Source: Lachnospiraceae bacterium (GTDB lineage Bacteria; Bacillota; Clostridia; Lachnospirales; Lachnospiraceae). From it: a DNA stretch of 42,244 nucleotides. The notes below the pieces were generated by a model. That model was not told where the DNA came from, made no database searches, and saw only the letters and a list, made by a program, of their open reading frames with translations. A program made the position numbers and the translations under genes. The DNA lies in contig JAFUGL010000021.1 in the NCBI GenBank assembly GCA_017469405.1, positions 1 to 42,244 of the forward strand, read 5' to 3'. This document shows positions 12,076 through 42,244 of the stretch, one piece after another (position 1 is the first letter of the stretch; every line of letters begins with the position of its first letter).

Positions 12076-12831
12076 CTACTTATCGGTAAGAGCCATAAGC
12101 ACTGTACCTGTACCTCTGTAAACATTTACAAGTCCCTCACCTGATACAGCCGAACCGATAAGGCTCTTAGAGGACTTCTCAACTGTAAATGCAAGTGAAC
12201 CCGACCATGCTATCGCCATATTGCCATCAATCTTAACTTCATCATCCTGAAGATTAAATGCTATAAGCTCCTGCTGCGGAACCGGACTTTCAAGAACTGC
12301 TATACCCTGTCCTGCAAGACTTAAATTAAATAAGCCCTCTCCACCAAGTGCGGCAGAGGAAAGATTGCTTCTTGCAACAACTTTGTCCTGAAGATTACTG
12401 TCACATGCAAGGAAAAGTCCGTCCTGAAGAACTATCGAACCCCACTGTGATACATCAATCATAATTATGTGCTTATACGTAGGTTCAAGCATAACATAAC
12501 CCTGTCCTACATATTCAGGTTTAGCAACTGTTTCACCTGTAACGGCTGCACTTACCATCTTGCCAAGAAAGTTTCCTGCCTTGACACCTGAAGTCATTGA
12601 TACATTTCCAATCATCCACTGCATGGCACCTGCCTGAACCTTGGCAGCAGAATTATTAAGTTCGATAAGCACCTGTCTTTTTCTTACATTCATCTTTGAA
12701 GCAAAATACTGAGTAGCAGCAGTCGCAGGAGTTACCGACAAATCCTGCTGATGCTCAAACACCCTAAACTGTCCAAGCTGACTTATACAAGTCATGTTTT
12801 TGTTGTCAAATAAATTGTTAATCTGATACAT
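12076..12831 (-). CDS. AIM24-family (TIGR00266-like) protein
   Basis: A 251-residue beta-rich cytoplasmic protein with the pattern of the AIM24 family: Gly-rich short beta strands, 'SGVKAGNFLGKMVSA' near 90-100, 'GEGLFNLSLAGQGIAVL' near 170, and a late 'VSGEGLVNVYRGTGTVLMA'. Bacterial members have no firmly established biochemical role. The gene stands alone between oppositely unlinked neighbours and has a strong AGGGGG ribosome site. No signal peptide or membrane segment is seen. Confidence 0.85.
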   Translation of the reverse strand: MYQINNLFDNKNMTCISQLGQFRVFEHQQDLSVTPATAATQYFASKMNVRKRQVLIELNNSAAKVQAGAMQWMIGNVSMTSGVKAGNFLGKMVSAAVTGETVAKPEYVGQGYVMLEPTYKHIIMIDVSQWGSIVLQDGLFLACDSNLQDKVVARSNLSSAALGGEGLFNLSLAGQGIAVLESPVPQQELIAFNLQDDEVKIDGNMAIAWSGSLAFTVEKSSKSLIGSAVSGEGLVNVYRGTGTVLMALTDK

Positions 12832-36522: not shown

Positions 36523-37578
36523 CTATCTTGCCCTTCTGTCATGTGCCTTGTAATAATCCGATTTATCCTTATACATCTTTGATTCCGCACTTACAATCAG
36601 AGTATTTATATCCACATCTTTAGCATCATGAAATTCAAAGCCCACAGCTGCATGATAACCCTGCTCTGATACTTGTGCCCTCATTTCATTTATTTTATCT
36701 TCGACCTCTGTTTTTGGCGAATCAAGAACAAATGCCACATATTCATCTCCACCAACGCGATAAGAATCCTTTTTGCCAAACTGTTTTTTTACAACATCAG
36801 CTATGTACTGAAGCATCTCGTCACCGGCCTTATGGCCCTTTGTATTGTTAAGCTCATGAAGTCCGTTGACATCAATGTATATACAGCCGATAGATTTCTT
36901 ATAGATAGATGGATAAGTTTCAAGTCTCCATTCATAGCAGTTTCTGTTGTTGAGACCTGTAAGCTGGTCAGTTTCACTCATGATGTGCAGTTTATTTTCA
37001 AGGACATATCCTCTTATCTTCGCCCTGTAAACTACCGATTCGGAAAATACAGCTAAGATACCGAATATTATCGCATCGGTTATATCAACAGATAAAATCG
37101 AACCGGTCTTGGTCTGACATGCCATTATAATAAAAACTATTATATAAAATATAAGACTTGCAGCCATACGTATTGGTCTGTCAACAAATATAAGAGGCAC
37201 AAAAATAAGCATAACCATAAAGGTTACTGTCTGCTGGTCAGGTCTTGTTAAGGTTGCAATGGCAATTCCGTATATCAAAAATACCGATATAGCCATATAA
37301 ACCGATACATATGTAAGTACAGGTATTTTTTTAGATAATAGTGCAATTACAATCTGTATAATTGAAAAAATAACACCAAAGATATAAACAGGCTTTGAGC
37401 CTGAAAATCCATCCAGAAAAAAAGAAAGCAACAGCATTATACTGATAAGGATTGAAGCTCCGGTTGCAAAAACAAGCGCAGTAATTCTATTGGACGCTTC
37501 AAGCCTGTCCTTAATGCTGTGATAGCTTTCTCTGTCTGTATCTCCGTAAAAGGCATACTCTTTTATCTTTTGCCACAT
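36523..37578 (-). CDS. Membrane diguanylate cyclase (GGDEF)
   Basis: I start at the ATG at 37578, behind AAGGAGG. The 351-residue protein has about six helices (30-185) and a C-terminal GGDEF domain. Active-site loop is RVGGDEYVAF (GGDEY), preceded by 'DQLTGLNNRNCYEW' and 'IDVNGLHELNNTKGHKAGDE', all expected for an active cyclase. No RxxD inhibitory site is obvious. It makes c-di-GMP at the membrane; the NUDIX gene follows by 31 bases. The signal is unknown. Confidence 0.88.
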   Translation of the reverse strand: MWQKIKEYAFYGDTDRESYHSIKDRLEASNRITALVFATGASILISIMLLLSFFLDGFSGSKPVYIFGVIFSIIQIVIALLSKKIPVLTYVSVYMAISVFLIYGIAIATLTRPDQQTVTFMVMLIFVPLIFVDRPIRMAASLIFYIIVFIIMACQTKTGSILSVDITDAIIFGILAVFSESVVYRAKIRGYVLENKLHIMSETDQLTGLNNRNCYEWRLETYPSIYKKSIGCIYIDVNGLHELNNTKGHKAGDEMLQYIADVVKKQFGKKDSYRVGGDEYVAFVLDSPKTEVEDKINEMRAQVSEQGYHAAVGFEFHDAKDVDINTLIVSAESKMYKDKSDYYKAHDRRAR

Positions 37579-37733
37579 AAAATATCCTCCTTGATAAAAC
37601 AAATACAAAAAGTTGTAAAAGATATTTTATCATAAAAATATTTTATTGGATAGTCCTTTTATTATAAATTATGTCAACCACGAGCAATTCGTACTCTCTC
37701 CCATCTGCTAAAAAAAATCTACCTAGTCATAAA

Positions 37734-38708
37734 TCATACTATGTCATTCAGAGTTTTACCTATATCTCCGTCTATGCATATGGCTCGTTCTTTAATTATC
37801 TCCGGTGCGAACGCCTCTCCGTAATTGATGCAGGCATAAACCGCATTGGAATTTGCCGCTGTCATCTGCCAGAACGGATACTTGATTATAACCGGTGTAT
37901 TGGCTCCGACTCCAAGCTCTAGATAGAGCACATGCATATCCTCGTGTCTTCTTAAGAAGTCCGAATAACGGGATGAAGCAAGCTTCCAGCCCTCATCCTC
38001 AACAAATGTATCATCTGCACGAAGATTCATGGTAACGTCACTTCTGTCATCAGGACATTTAGGTATAAGTTCCGTAGGGATTCTCATGGAAAGCTTACCA
38101 TCTTCAGGTACTTGGAACACACCATTTTCATCCTTTACAAAGCCCTGTGACTCCATCGCCTTCATAACCCATTCTTCATTGTCATAGGTTTTTTTAAGCT
38201 TGGGATTAACACTCTGGAAAAGGCCGTAATCTCCCTGCGTATAAAATAATCTCCTCTTATCAAAACCTGCCCTCTGAAATTGGTGGTCAACGTTAGTAGT
38301 TATGACAAAATAATCTTTCTTTGGTGCAACCACCGGTTCATCTTTTTTTTCGATAACCGAATCAGCAGCCACCCTTCCGTCAACTAAATCATAAAGCATA
38401 TCATATACCGGCTTCGGTGCTTTATTATAACGATTTATATAAATATTTCTTGCCCAATATGCCCATGACACCTCAGGTTCAAGGTCCATCACATAAAATC
38501 CTCCTGAATACATATCATGGAAACCATATTCTTTTTCAAAATCAAAAAAATATTTTTTAAACCTCTCACCGCTATAGGTAAATCCCGCTGATGTGGAAAG
38601 TCCTGCTCCCGCACCGATTATAATCGCATCTGCCGTTTCTATCTCCTTTTTTAATCTCTTTATATTATCCTCACGTGAGCCTGTCTCACTTATTATCCTG
38701 TAGCTCAT
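37734..38708 (-). CDS. Class-M sirtuin (SirTM), protein ADP-ribosyltransferase-like
   Basis: Sirtuin-fold enzyme of the SirTM class, known in pathogens to ADP-ribosylate a lipoylated GcvH-like carrier protein using NAD. I start at the ATG at 38708, nine bases after GAGGGGG; longer frames overlap the macrodomain gene. In the 324-residue protein the NAD motif GAGAGLSTSAG is at 32-42, TTNVDHQF is near 137-144, and at the catalytic-His place is Gln 158 (YTQGDYG), as in SirTM transferases rather than deacylases. A flexible acidic insert lies near 111-131. It follows the zinc macrodomain gene by 46 bases, the usual partner. Confidence 0.87.
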   Translation of the reverse strand: MSYRIISETGSREDNIKRLKKEIETADAIIIGAGAGLSTSAGFTYSGERFKKYFFDFEKEYGFHDMYSGGFYVMDLEPEVSWAYWARNIYINRYNKAPKPVYDMLYDLVDGRVAADSVIEKKDEPVVAPKKDYFVITTNVDHQFQRAGFDKRRLFYTQGDYGLFQSVNPKLKKTYDNEEWVMKAMESQGFVKDENGVFQVPEDGKLSMRIPTELIPKCPDDRSDVTMNLRADDTFVEDEGWKLASSRYSDFLRRHEDMHVLYLELGVGANTPVIIKYPFWQMTAANSNAVYACINYGEAFAPEIIKERAICIDGDIGKTLNDIV

Positions 38709-38754
38709 AGCTCTCATCCCCCTCTGTATAGTTTCTCTGTATCCGTCACTTTTT

Positions 38755-39591
38755 TTAAGAAAGTAATCCTTCGTAATAGAATTTGTCTTCATCTTTAAAA
38801 ACATTAAATATCACCCTTTCCATACTGCCCTCATGCTCCGACAGCCATTTTGTCACCGTATCAACCGCAATTTCCGCAGCACGCTCATTTGGAAAATGAA
38901 ATACTCCTGTAGAGATACAACAAAATGCTACGCTTTTTAATCCATTTTCAAGGCACATATCAAGCGTATTCTTGTAACAGTCAGATAAATCCTTCTCAAG
39001 CTCCTTTGTAAGTCTTCCCATCACTATCGGTCCAACTATATGTATAACCTTTTTCGCTGGAAGATTATAACCATCCGTAAGCATCGGAACCGCTGTCGGC
39101 TGTTCATATTCCATACCATACTTTAATCTTAGGTTATTCATCTTTTCATTGCACTCTGCTCTCATCTGAATTCCTCCAAATGTATGTATGCAGTTATCTA
39201 TACAGGTGTGACAAGGTTGAAAACAGCCAAGCATCTGACTGTTCGCAGCATTAACAATTGCATCCACTGATAGCCTTGTTATATCTCCCTGCCATATCGA
39301 AATCATATCCGCATAATTTTTATCGCTTCCGTACTCTTCAGATACGGTCTTTATATCTTTAATTTCGACTATGCCTTTTTCAATGATAGCTTCCTTAAGA
39401 TACTCATCCTGTATCGCAAGTGTCTCATCGTCCATCTTCCTCGGCTTACGTATATTCATAAGAGAACGCAAAATCCTCTTTTTCTCATTTATATTGTTCG
39501 AAACCTTTAAGTCCCTGTACTCGCCTGAATCTTCCTTGAACTTATCTACAAGGTAATTTAGTCTTTCTTCCTGAGTCTTAAGTTTTGTCAT
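38755..39591 (-). CDS. Zinc-dependent macrodomain protein (ADP-ribosyl hydrolase)
   Basis: A 278-residue protein with an N-terminal helical extension (1-95) and a macrodomain (96-270). Motifs are 'IWQGDITRLSVDAIVNAANS' near 99-118, then LGCFQPCHTCIDNCIH (near 121-136), which holds the Cys/His/Cys set of zinc macrodomains linked to SirTM (C123, H128, C130). A conserved 'CCISTGVFHFPNERAAEIA' loop lies near 224-242. These enzymes remove ADP-ribose from the SirTM target. GGGAGAGG precedes the start. Genes on both sides are close (2 bases from the MDR gene, 46 from the sirtuin), so one operon is likely. Confidence 0.9.
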   Translation of the reverse strand: MTKLKTQEERLNYLVDKFKEDSGEYRDLKVSNNINEKKRILRSLMNIRKPRKMDDETLAIQDEYLKEAIIEKGIVEIKDIKTVSEEYGSDKNYADMISIWQGDITRLSVDAIVNAANSQMLGCFQPCHTCIDNCIHTFGGIQMRAECNEKMNNLRLKYGMEYEQPTAVPMLTDGYNLPAKKVIHIVGPIVMGRLTKELEKDLSDCYKNTLDMCLENGLKSVAFCCISTGVFHFPNERAAEIAVDTVTKWLSEHEGSMERVIFNVFKDEDKFYYEGLLS

Positions 39592-39592
39592 A

Positions 39593-40561
39593 TTATCCTC
39601 TCCCTATTCTTACAACTATCTTACCATTAACAGCACCCTTATCCTGTGCGGTTATGGCATCCTTAATATTATCAAATTCAAAAACCTTTCCATATATAGG
39701 AACTATCTTCTTATTATAAAAAAATTTAAACATGTCATCAACCACTTCCTGTGTAGGATAGTTTGAGAAAAATCCTGTAAGATAAACACCGTTTGGAATA
39801 TCCTTTATAGGATCAAATCCATCAAGTGCATACACTCCGCCAAGTATGCCTGTCTGGCAGACTATACCGCCTTTATTCACAGCAGTCATAGTATCCTTGA
39901 GATACTTTGGACCAACAAGATCAAGAGCCTTTGTAACGCCTTTTATCCTGCCGGTCAATTTACCATCATCCAAAAAGACTTCATCCGCTTCTTTAATAAG
40001 TACAAATTTATCTTCTCTATGAGTTGTGGCAATCACACGCGCGCCAAGTGCCATTGCTATCTGTATGGCAGCATATCCAAGCGCACAGGTTGCACCGCGA
40101 ATAAGTAATGTATCCTCTGCCCTAAGATTAAGGCATTCAAAAAGAGAGCCCCATGCCGTAAAATATGTCTCAGATATAGCAGCAAGCTCCTCCCAGTTAA
40201 GTTCACTTTCTATCTTAAATACATGATGTGCAGGAAGTAAAACATACTCTGCATAGCTTCCGTTAAAGCTTCTTCCCATACCACCCATCATAGCTATAAC
40301 CTTATCGCCTTTAGTTAATGTCGTATCGGATGCATCCTCTATTACTCCCACACACTCGATACCGGGTATAACAGGCTTTTGTATGTAATCAGCATTTATC
40401 TCATTTAATCTGAGTATCTGTTCAGAATGATTCATTCCAAATGCCTTGACCTTTACAAGCACCCAACCGGATTTAACATTAGGTATCGGAAGCTCTGAAA
40501 TTTCAATATTTTCTGCAGGTGTTATTTTATCTATTGATATTGCTTTCATTTTTTTATCCAT
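39593..40561 (-). CDS. MDR-family zinc-free alcohol dehydrogenase/quinone oxidoreductase
   Basis: NAD(P)-dependent oxidoreductase of the medium-chain superfamily, quinone-reductase branch. I start at the ATG at 40561 (GAGG ten bases up); a TTG three codons up is less likely. The 322-residue protein has 'GVIEDASDTTLTKGDKVIAM' in the catalytic domain and a Rossmann stretch LLIRGATCALGYAAIQIA, a variant of the GxxGxxG site. 'VCQTGILGG' follows, and the end reads NGKIVVRIG. No Cys/His set for structural zinc is evident. It stands between the radical SAM gene and the macrodomain gene; substrate unknown. Confidence 0.85.
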   Translation of the reverse strand: MDKKMKAISIDKITPAENIEISELPIPNVKSGWVLVKVKAFGMNHSEQILRLNEINADYIQKPVIPGIECVGVIEDASDTTLTKGDKVIAMMGGMGRSFNGSYAEYVLLPAHHVFKIESELNWEELAAISETYFTAWGSLFECLNLRAEDTLLIRGATCALGYAAIQIAMALGARVIATTHREDKFVLIKEADEVFLDDGKLTGRIKGVTKALDLVGPKYLKDTMTAVNKGGIVCQTGILGGVYALDGFDPIKDIPNGVYLTGFFSNYPTQEVVDDMFKFFYNKKIVPIYGKVFEFDNIKDAITAQDKGAVNGKIVVRIGRG

Positions 40562-40609
40562 ATATTTCAAACCTCACATTATATTTTAATTCACTATTTC
40601 TATCATTTT

Positions 40610-41665
40610 TTATACTAATTCAAAAAGCTCTCCATTTTCATCTGCCCAGCAACCCGGATCATCTGCATAAAAATCTCCATTTGTTCCTTTTGCAACAGCA
40701 GGGCAGCCTCTACACCATGCAAGAAGCTTGCACCTGGAACATTTACTGAATTTCTCATACTCTCGATAAGCCTCCATGCTTGTAATCCACACATCTGCAA
40801 GTCTATCCTCTAATGCATTTCCCACCTTGCTTTCAGCGACTCTTCGACATGCGTAAATATCACCGGTAGGAAGTATGGTAATGTGGCAGTTTCCACAGTT
40901 ACAGCCTCCGTATATCATACCTTTATCTGTATCGTCAGGTATGGTAAACTCACCTGTCTCGTATTCATACAGAGTCCACAGATGATCCTTTTTATTAAAG
41001 AACGTATCGCATCCCTCTGCCTCATACTCTTTGAATTTCTTATCACATATAGAAAGGAGTTCTCTATATTCCAATGCTGTCATACCAGAATCAAGTTCAC
41101 CGCCGCTTGGCACGTATCTTGAAAATGCAAATATTTTTACACCTGCTTTTACTACCTCGTCGATAATCCCCGGTACTTCCATGCGATTATCCTTTGATAC
41201 AGTAGTCATAATAACACTCTTAATTCCTGCACGATTTATGCATCCGATTTTCTCCAAGGTGCAGTCATATGAACCGGGCTTTCTAAACCAGTCGTGTGTT
41301 TCACGAAGTCCGTCTAAAGATAACTGATACTTTTCACAGCCATACCATTTAAGTTCTCTGCACACATTATCCGTTAGATGAAACGGATTACCAAGTATCG
41401 TAAATGTAATCTCATTTTCATGTAAAAGCTCAAGCAATCTCCAAAAATCCGGATGTAAAATCGGATCTCCGCCCGTTATATAAAAGTAAGGACTGCGGCC
41501 ATACACCTCGCAAAAATCAAGACAGTTATAAAATGTATCTTCAATCTGCTCCCACGTCATTGATTTAAGACAGGTATACTCTCCCGATGAATAAATATAA
41601 CAATGCTTGCATCTTTGATCGCATTCATCCGTAATATGCCATTGAAACGAAAAGTAAGGTTTCAT
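40610..41665 (-). CDS. Radical SAM/SPASM peptide maturase, ACGX-type
   Basis: A 351-residue radical SAM enzyme that uses a [4Fe-4S] cluster bound by C15, C19 and C22 (CDQRCKHC) to cleave S-adenosylmethionine. GGDP (65-68) binds SAM. The C-terminal SPASM domain supplies extra cysteines (255, 257, 260, 273, 309, 312, 318, 321, 339) for auxiliary clusters. It sits 147 bases after a 53-residue Cys-repeat precursor gene, in the same direction. From memory, NCBI families describe this pairing as the 'ACGX system'. The expected reaction is a radical crosslink on the precursor, for example thioether formation; product chemistry is not known to me. AGGAGG-like site upstream. Confidence 0.88.
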   Translation of the reverse strand: MKPYFSFQWHITDECDQRCKHCYIYSSGEYTCLKSMTWEQIEDTFYNCLDFCEVYGRSPYFYITGGDPILHPDFWRLLELLHENEITFTILGNPFHLTDNVCRELKWYGCEKYQLSLDGLRETHDWFRKPGSYDCTLEKIGCINRAGIKSVIMTTVSKDNRMEVPGIIDEVVKAGVKIFAFSRYVPSGGELDSGMTALEYRELLSICDKKFKEYEAEGCDTFFNKKDHLWTLYEYETGEFTIPDDTDKGMIYGGCNCGNCHITILPTGDIYACRRVAESKVGNALEDRLADVWITSMEAYREYEKFSKCSRCKLLAWCRGCPAVAKGTNGDFYADDPGCWADENGELFELV

Positions 41666-41745
41666 AATTTAATCCTCCATATAAAACCATAAAACAAATC
41701 TTTTATTTATATCAAAATAAGCCTACACTTATAATAATCTTTTAT

Positions 41746-41773
41746 AATTCCTCCGACAAAAGCCGGAGGAATT
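41746..41773. repeat. Hairpin between the precursor and maturase genes
   Basis: AATTCCTCCG pairs perfectly with CGGAGGAATT around an 8-base loop, in the 147-base gap. On the minus strand no U-tract follows, so it is likelier an mRNA processing or stabilising element that lets the short precursor message accumulate above the maturase. On the plus strand it has a T-run, so it could end antisense transcripts. Confidence 0.6.
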
Positions 41774-41812
41774 AAGTTTTTTGAACAATAAAACAACGTA
41801 CTTTTACTGACC

Positions 41813-41974
41813 TTATTTGTCACTTGCTCCGCAAGCTGTTCCACATGCTGCCTTCTTATCGCCTGCTCCGCAAGCGGTTCCGCATGCCGCCTTTTTATCG
41901 CTTGCTCCACATGCGGTTCCGCATGCTGATGTTGCAGCGCCTTTAGACCATCCTGCAATGTTTGCTAATGCCAT
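41813..41974 (-). CDS. ACGX-repeat RiPP precursor peptide
   Basis: A 53-residue peptide behind a strong AGGAGG site nine bases before the ATG at 41974. Residues 1-17 (MALANIAGWSKGAATSA) form a short leader. The core is three tandem 13-residue repeats of CGTACGA(S/G)DKKAA type, with cysteines at 18, 22, 31, 35, 44 and 48. Each unit holds ACGTACGA, two ACG-x steps four residues apart. The repeats are also visible in DNA as 39-base units with silent changes, which shows selection on protein. No peptidase or transporter gene is adjacent on the minus strand within the window. Matured by the radical SAM enzyme downstream; the final product is unknown. Confidence 0.85.
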   Translation of the reverse strand: MALANIAGWSKGAATSACGTACGASDKKAACGTACGAGDKKAACGTACGASDK

Positions 41975-42044
41975 ACCCTTTTACCTCCTGTTATTATTCA
42001 GAAAACTTATTAAATGTGTTTTTCTGTATAATTTATTTTACACG

Positions 42045-42076
42045 TAAAAAAAGCGCATACAAGTACGCACTTTTTT
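42045..42076. terminator. Bidirectional terminator-like hairpin upstream of the precursor
   Basis: AAAAAAGCGC...GCACTTTTTT forms a stem with one mismatch, and T-runs follow on both strands. It separates the ACGX locus from whatever lies to the right. No gene on either strand ends directly at it in this window. Confidence 0.55.
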
Positions 42077-42212
42077 GTAAGTATGGAATTTCTTTTTTTT
42101 CACGCCAGAGTAAAATTTTTGTCGGAAAATGAATAAAGAGATAGGGGAATCCCTGAACTTGTGATAAAGTGTTAGTTGGCATAAAAAAAACACACACAAG
42201 GAGGAGTTCCCC

Positions 42213-42244
42213 ATGGAAGAGATTATACAATATTTTGCCGAGGT
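42213..42244 (+). CDS. Partial gene at window edge
   Basis: ATG at 42213 follows AAGGAGGAG at good spacing, and the first ten codons read MEEIIQYFAE before the window ends. The family cannot be named from ten residues. The upstream 42100-42212 stretch contains GGGGAA...TTCCCC as an inverted pair and an AT-rich segment; a transposase gene near an insertion-sequence end is possible but unproven. Confidence 0.45.
   Translation, partial: MEEIIQYFAE

Follow-up and report, generated by a model that had tools for sequence, protein, structure and literature searches.

The 42,244-base stretch of DNA analysed here (the window) is one whole contig of a Lachnospiraceae bacterium (JAFUGL010000021.1; G000:C84), and its far end carries an operon-like run of minus-strand genes centred on an ACGX-type ribosomally synthesised and post-translationally modified peptide (RiPP). 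In the order of transcription, these are an open reading frame (ORF) of 53 residues (acgA, 41813..41974), a radical S-adenosylmethionine (SAM)/SPASM protein of 351 residues (acgM, 40610..41665), a medium-chain dehydrogenase/reductase (MDR) of 325 residues (39593..40570), a macrodomain protein of 278 residues (38755..39591), and a class-M sirtuin (SirTM) ORF of 356 residues (37734..38804). Successive genes are spaced by 147, 39, and 1 bp, followed by a 50-bp overlap of the sirtuin frame with the macrodomain gene, so that the five are arranged like one operon. The first-pass annotation of this DNA had described acgA and acgM and overlooked their functional setting: the conserved operon continues through the next three genes (37734-40570). 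Rfam gave no match within 37500-42244.

The assignment of the first two genes to the ACGX class was borne out by a search against the curated families, as AcgA scored 48.4 bits with TIGR04341 (cut-off 28) and AcgM 582.7 bits with TIGR04340 (cut-off 400); the corresponding genes on a Roseburia plasmid record bear the NCBI names acgA and acgM. The 53-residue precursor (MALANIAGWSKGAATSACGTACGASDKKAACGTACGAGDKKAACGTACGASDK) is real, with homologues at the loci of relatives. It has the leader MALANIAGW and three ACGTACGA(S/G)DK units, and its six cysteines form three Cys-x3-Cys pairs with Gly after each Cys, as had been described. No peptidase, transporter or immunity gene adjoins the acgA/acgM pair in the window, again in agreement with the earlier description.

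AcgM matches Radical_SAM (residues 11-169) and SPASM (residues 255-321) and nothing else above the Pfam cut-offs, including any RiPP recognition element (RRE)-type domain, N-terminal or otherwise. Its CxxxCxxC cysteines C15, C19, and C22 are invariant in an alignment of 19 sequences (A1), and so are the C-terminal cysteines C255, C273, C309, C312, C318, C321, and C339 that mark it as a SPASM protein. The probable modifying enzyme is a radical SAM protein, and no multinuclear non-haem iron-dependent oxidative enzyme (MNIO) is among the five operon genes. The MDR (Pfam ADH_N/ADH_zinc_N) resembles NAD(P)H quinone oxidoreductases, which make up two of its three PDB matches at E 1e-20, and is 91.5% identical to an ACGX-linked MDR from a relative. 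The macrodomain protein exceeds the cut-off of NF003163 for zinc macrodomain (Zn-macro) protein-ADP-ribose hydrolases (299.5 bits against 272, residues 5-277), and its best PDB matches, 8rsi, 5kiv, and 8rsl, include Zn-macros. Read by eye, its GCFQPCHTC fits the Cx4HxC Zn-loop motif as given for Zn-macros in PMC11490716, and the N-terminal extension of these proteins is also present. The sirtuin had no Pfam match at E 0.01. Its best PDB match is 5a3a (148.7 bits), a SIR2 family protein, the SirTM of Streptococcus pyogenes. In its YTQGDYG, again read by eye, QG replaces HG, a mark of SirTM according to PMC4518038, and the macrodomain gene adjoins it; the protein is a putative ADP-ribosyltransferase. 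Neither GcvH-L nor LplA2 is among the five operon genes identified in the window.

Relatives were taken from a genome-contig scan that yielded at least 575, of which the best 80 were used together with order-level, plasmid, and viral loci. This gave 99 loci with a maturase, or 94 after dereplication at 97% maturase identity; many of the source genomes are metagenome-assembled, and some organism labels are probably misbinned. Within the same order, the maturase was present in 27 of 392 genomes at E 1e-90 (26 above the family cut-off, one genome with two copies), and in a phylum-wide sample it was present in 9 of 398 genomes at E 1e-100. Counted among the 27 is G205 (L028/L198), although its protein scores under the family cut-off. 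This radical SAM protein (L198) is 43% identical to the window maturase, has ~270 extra residues before the matching part in its open frame, is not accompanied by a precursor, and possibly represents a related but different family. Plasmids carry the maturase too, in Roseburia, Subdoligranulum, and the archaeon Methanosphaera, which indicates that ACGX moves between lineages. On a plasmid of the culturable Roseburia sp. 831b, a divergent helix-turn-helix gene precedes an uninterrupted series of acgA, acgM, and genes for a nitroreductase, a 4Fe-4S protein, an ADP-ribose hydrolase, and Sir2. On the Methanosphaera plasmid pNP174 (L117, 6673-8025), a precursor with CGxE repeats stands with a maturase annotated as two ORFs, and bacteriophage exclusion (BREX) genes lie a few kb away. 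Two of 30 candidate stretches on viral contigs encoded a relative, both 53% identical. One of these, the 504-kb contig of L111, carries an ACGX-like maturase (53%) but no precursor that could be recognised; it is filed as viral and may in fact be cellular.

Loss of the precursor where the maturase is kept had been named beforehand as an outcome that would speak against the pairing. Precursors were recovered at 98 of 110 maturase loci, and three more appeared on a looser look. In six of the nine loci left without one, the sequence upstream amounts to 116 bases or fewer; the other three (L025, L028, and L111) lack it. The maturase frame of L025 is interrupted, and the L028 maturase falls below the family cut-off.

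Reading these loci gave 94 distinct homologous precursors, each passing a filter of at least two [ASGTPC]CG[ASTV] motifs per peptide, in which an acid at +4 is not required and Ala is one of six residues allowed before Cys. Of the 564 cysteines that have a +4 residue, 97.2% have D, E or C there, compared with a mean of 23.9% and a maximum of 31.3% in 300 shuffles of the cores, which, together with the 94 homologous precursors, shows that the precursor ORF is not due to chance. Gly follows Cys in 562 of 568 cases and Ala precedes it in 549, and the full Ala-Cys-Gly is found in 548. Proximal cysteines, i.e., those with another Cys at +4, number 200; ACG surrounds 194 of them, and in all 200 the positions +1 to +6 are free of acidic residues. 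Of the remaining 368, the distal cysteines, 354 lie within ACG and 348 are followed by D or E at position +4. Counted over 74 distinct distal contexts, the acid is at +4 in 67, at +1 and +2 in none, at +3 in four, and at +5 in six, while +6 has it in 4/64. Only 20 cysteines lack C, D or E at +4, four of them at the end of the peptide, and these exceptions were retained. In the window peptide, the three distal cysteines fit Cx3D/E. Precursors contain between one and seven units, and leaders starting with MALSN are the most frequent. In the divergent precursor L199, whose maturase (L026 in the alignment) is 50% identical to that of the window, the units are all single CGxxD, and the precursor on the Methanosphaera plasmid carries CGxE seven times, which places the acid at +3. 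The Cys-x3-Cys pair is absent from 5 of the 94 precursors. The first-pass annotation had deduced from these pairs that each repeat carries one crosslink set; this is not supported in that form, as the pairs are less steady than ACG around Cys and an acid four residues after a unit's last Cys, and crosslinks are predicted only. Moreover, SbtM, the best-scoring characterised family for AcgM, makes a local heterocycle and no crosslink.

Neighbouring genes were compared by clustering in 82 loci and by a tblastn census, with families confirmed on single representatives (Nitroreductase; PNPOx_N with Fer4; Macro; and SIR2, slightly below cut-off at 23.5/24). Among the 66 loci with at least 5.5 kb of downstream sequence, co-directional genes within this distance included an MDR or nitroreductase in 47, a PNPOx-ferredoxin protein in 39, a sirtuin in 41, and both macrodomain and sirtuin in 37; four loci (L069, L084, L111, and L198) had no reductase, PNPOx-ferredoxin, macrodomain or sirtuin gene. 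In the 500 bp that follow the maturase, the closest gene with a label was, over 91 loci, an MDR in 30, a nitroreductase in 24, and a PNPOx-ferredoxin gene in 15, and there was none in 22. Apart from the genes named, the precursor and its reverse-frame shadow, no cluster was found in more than 14 of 82 loci, the top ones being a two-component pair (14 and 13). The most frequent recognisable transporter cluster, that of an ABC transporter, reached 8 of 82 loci; clusters were assigned by eye, with some of them profiled.

As a comparison, 40 'ACGX-free' macrodomain loci were hand-picked from Zn-macro matches; one of them, L151, belongs to a genome (G282) whose ACGX genes sit on a different contig, and could be part of a split ACGX operon. 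These had a reductase of any of three kinds nearby in 3 cases, HxlR in 15, PNPOx-ferredoxin in 13, and a sirtuin in 30. The difference in reductases (47/66 against 3/40, Fisher p 3e-11) was obtained with differing neighbour windows, namely 5.5 kb downstream on the same strand for ACGX loci and 3 kb either side on any strand for ACGX-free macrodomain loci. The reductase is accordingly tied to ACGX; HxlR, PNPOx-ferredoxin, and macrodomain/SirTM make up a wider redox module that ACGX joins. At the level of genomes, ACGX was present in 27 and Zn-macro (NF003163) in 114 of the 392 from the order, and both in 19 (Fisher p 5e-6; 18/26 and p 1e-5 without the window's own genome), an overlap read by hand from two match lists. 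Both lie within 5 kb of each other on one contig in 11 genomes, including the window's own; the chance value computed for such linkage took a 10-kb target in 2.5 Mb. In a macrodomain tree of 86 rows, the ACGX label changes 18 times, whereas shuffled labels change 28.8 times on average and none of 500 shuffles was as low as 18; in a sirtuin tree of 79 rows there are 17 changes, only five of them forced. The association of ACGX with the macrodomain is therefore recurrent, far from confined to one clade, and non-exclusive.

Upstream of the precursor, 79 dereplicated loci offer at least 1.5 kb of sequence, and in 70 of these the census found HxlR divergently transcribed at a distance of no more than 2 kb. 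One representative HxlR was profiled and scored 109.2 bits with PF01638; its closest NCBIfam models were RrpB (122.9, cut-off 175) and RrpA (83.1, cut-off 185), both below cut-off. RrpB and RrpA are redox regulators. In the window, the presumed acgA promoter region (42035..42089, minus strand) has the HxlR-type box CTTACAAAAAAGTGCGTACTTG with its core at 42061-42075, and a -10-like TAAAAT was seen by eye at 42035-42040. A consensus scan listed no promoter at this box; it did list a terminator-like inverted repeat over it (42068-42053). The box is conserved, as GTGCGTACTT was found within one mismatch in 86 of 93 precursor upstreams of relatives compared with 1 of 94 shuffled upstreams. A loose pattern, used without a shuffled control, placed a second, outer element in 83 of the 86 box-bearing upstreams, in many loci close to GTTAC-N6-GTAAC, which was not seen in the window. 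Of the 15 macrodomain loci in the ACGX-free set that are linked to HxlR, 14 likewise have a box within one mismatch of GTGCGTACTT no more than 700 bp upstream of the HxlR gene; the box thus follows HxlR, not ACGX. Its carriers there are L150, L152, L156, L157, L158, L162, L165, L166, L167, L168, L169, L174, L182, and L187, some with PNPOx-like flavoproteins, and perhaps they reflect a wider redox regulon in the order.

The gap between acgA and acgM contains a 13-bp hairpin (41745..41774, minus strand; minimum free energy of the gap -32.9 kcal/mol, z -5.9). It is terminator-like only on the plus strand; the operon strand has no T run, which sets the hairpin apart from a standard terminator. The gap could be measured at 71 loci of relatives and spans 40-400 nt at 65; of these 65, 58 have a stem of at least 8 bp, and 58 likewise a z below -2 (mononucleotide shuffles). 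The hairpin may set an excess of peptide over enzyme. Elsewhere in the window, an AIM24-family protein is encoded at 12076-12831 (PF01987, 142.5 bits).

The best explanation of the whole, to which I give a probability of about 0.4, is that this is an ACGX-type RiPP operon acting in the cytosol in redox/electrophile (possibly soft-metal) stress. The neighbours are redox enzymes under a redox-type regulator, which favours an intracellular redox-stress peptide and suggests that it works in redox defence and not as a secreted antibiotic; of the two fates considered in the first-pass annotation, action inside the cell or general export, the conserved neighbours thus favour the former. A redox-type HxlR would control the operon from the box near the acgA promoter, as the conserved operator and the gene position imply, and AcgA would be made in excess of AcgM at a ratio set by the conserved intergenic hairpin. 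AcgM would then oxidise Cys in Ala-Cys-Gly by radical SAM chemistry, most likely forming at the Cys a local heterocycle like the thiooxazole of SbtM (-4 Da per Cys); the downstream acid would serve recognition or metal binding. The poly-modified peptide may act as a thiol/redox or metal buffer serviced by the NAD(P)H oxidoreductase encoded next to it, an MDR or a nitroreductase; no conserved linked exporter was seen. In about half of the loci, the SirTM/Zn-macro pair may gate the module by attaching ADP-ribose to the peptide, or to a partner flavoprotein, and removing it again. PMC11490716 and PMC4518038 describe the corresponding pair in the GcvH-L operon as acting on a lipoylated carrier, a proposed redox scavenger; by analogy the ACGX peptide could, with low probability, be the counterpart of this carrier. 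In the account of PMC11490716, GcvH-L is the only known SirTM target, the targets of other pairs are stated as unknown, and Zn-macros can cleave S-linked ADP-ribose from Cys.

Which chemistry AcgM performs is the first point to weigh. SbtM (TIGR04082) is its best-scoring characterised family at 157.9 bits and matches all 19 members of the alignment; SbtM converts Cys or Sec to a thio(seleno)oxazole with the loss of four hydrogens, as described in PMC11002830. A thiooxazole-like local change of the Cys, predicted from these profiles, has a chance slightly short of even, and it accounts for the fact that cysteines with and without an acid share ACG. Rather doubtful is the proposal that AcgM is a freyrasin-like ranthipeptide synthase that joins the sulphur of the distal Cys to the beta carbon of Asp or the gamma carbon of Glu four residues on, leaving the proximal Cys free or in a disulfide. 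Such a thioether explains the acid at +4 (348/368 distal Cys, 67/74 distinct contexts, with few at other offsets), conforms with the Cx3D/E substrates that PMC9413430 reports for PapB, which tolerates other spacings too, and agrees with the divergent L199 precursor retaining only single Cx3D units. The PapB model (NF047865) also matches all 19 members, but it gives AcgM just 66.1 bits against a cut-off of 340. Furthermore, 194/200 proximal cysteines stand in the identical ACG context with no acid within reach, and the Methanosphaera acid at +3 would mean a ring size that is not fixed. The thioether was initially preferred on account of Cx3D/E and was downgraded because SbtM scores far higher and the proximal cysteines share ACG without an acid. 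Whatever probability the two leave falls to some other chemistry. For the window peptide, an SbtM-like heterocycle predicts -24 Da and a PapB-like thioether -6 Da. SbtM loci were found in 0 of 398 phylum genomes; the controls likewise gave no match, so this 0 does not show absence.

A number of observations count against the proposed explanation and are gathered here. AcgM stays far below the SbtM cut-off (157.9/350), NCBIfam holds it as a separate hypothetical equivalog, and a heterocycle needs a separate reason for the acid at +4; the precursor filter itself accounts for part of the frequency of Gly after Cys. No metal-handling gene was noticed among the conserved clusters. In the window's own genome, the 15-base operator core occurs once, before acgA, and a reversed control pattern occurs twice, so that the single match is no evidence by itself. 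The window contig stops before any HxlR gene. Close to one end of a second contig of the same genome (C71) there is an HxlR gene that shares ~90% identity with an ACGX-linked one; this region matches the HxlR region of a close relative (L031), and the window end matches L031 from the acgA promoter on, so the contigs, which are not joined here, may break between acgA and the regulator. The outermost ~560 bases of C71 have no match to L031, and window positions 42195-42244 hold an apparent ribosome-binding site and the first codons (MEEIIQYFAE) of a plus-strand gene at the contig end, perhaps a mobile element that broke the assembly between acgA and the HxlR gene. Finally, macrodomain and sirtuin are both absent within 5.5 kb in 25 of 66 ACGX loci, and at least 12 of the 18 label changes on the macrodomain tree are forced by starred branches, which means that the pair is not dedicated to ACGX. 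Dedication of SirTM/macrodomain to ACGX was rejected on these forced changes and the ACGX-free HxlR-macrodomain operons. The same findings lend a chance slightly better than even to the view that the peptide is unconnected to ADP-ribosylation and that the pair is merely co-regulated and has another target, e.g., the PNPOx-ferredoxin flavoprotein, for ACGX-free macrodomain loci are also near HxlR (15/40) and PNPOx-ferredoxin (13/40). This view is compatible with either chemistry, but repeated independent co-location is itself a signal of a functional connection, and removal of S-linked ADP-ribose from Cys by Zn-macros, as stated in PMC11490716, would suit a Cys peptide. The boldest combination, in which ACGX peptides are both the oxygen-independent radical SAM counterpart of captophorins (a cytosolic poly-heterocyclic redox/metal buffer of anaerobic gut bacteria) and non-GcvH-L targets of SirTM/Zn-macro, switched on and off by reversible ADP-ribosylation on Cys or Asp/Glu, is unlikely. 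A mycofactocin-like redox cofactor for the adjacent MDR or nitroreductase is very unlikely: these are the nearest labelled genes after the maturase (30 and 24 of 91 loci) and AcgM resembles the mycofactocin maturase (80 bits), but one to seven units are unlike a defined cofactor, no conserved trimming peptidase was seen among the neighbours, and the hairpin would point to an abundant peptide. A secreted antimicrobial or signal peptide is highly improbable; many Cys-rich radical SAM RiPPs are antimicrobial, in general knowledge and as PMC8326336 describes, but the scarcity of transporter clusters and the conserved oxidoreductases and redox-type regulator argue against it here.

Both ACGX gene families were already catalogued and named. 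No paper on an ACGX product or operon, and no solved product, was found in the open-licence literature searched, where ACGX is a name without a function; this analysis adds the operon that unites them with HxlR, a reductase, Zn-macro, and SirTM, along with its operator and hairpin and the acid-spacing rule. The conserved setting gives a concrete, testable hypothesis and makes the ACGX peptide a candidate answer to the question raised in PMC11490716 about SirTM/Zn-macro targets outside the GcvH-L operon. If true, RiPP chemistry would be joined with bacterial ADP-ribosylation signalling in gut and rumen anaerobes.

Set against known systems, the window locus does not differ in kind from the ACGX system of TIGR04340/TIGR04341, with both cut-offs exceeded, adjacent genes (147 bp), and ACGX repeats. 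Residues 4-339 of AcgM align to positions 198-515 of the 516 in the SbtM profile; in contrast to SbtM, AcgM has no match to the first ~197 positions and reaches 157.9/350 bits. PapB/freyrasin ranthipeptides share the Cx3D/E spacing at the distal Cys and a multi-site precursor, while ACGX differs in the score of AcgM (66.1/340 bits), the ACG context, and the extra proximal Cys without an acid. Captophorins, as portrayed in PMC12668002, likewise have short Cys-Gly repeats with acids and stress-linked gene clusters. Their MNIO enzymes install 5-thiooxazoles, among repeat precursors most often on EGKCG. The enzyme assayed tolerated no residue other than Gly or Ala after Cys, and its turnover suffered when a downstream Glu was changed. 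The captophorin fontiphorin binds copper, and other captophorins have diverse residues around Cys (PMC12668002). They differ from ACGX, which uses radical SAM chemistry, in having an MNIO enzyme with an RRE partner, in being mostly from Pseudomonadota, and in their neighbours. The extended SirTM/Zn-macro operon (GcvH-L, LplA2) is alike in placing a Zn-macro and a SirTM in a redox-stress operon with oxidoreductases; the window operon is without GcvH-L and LplA2 and has, instead, a RiPP peptide and its maturase.

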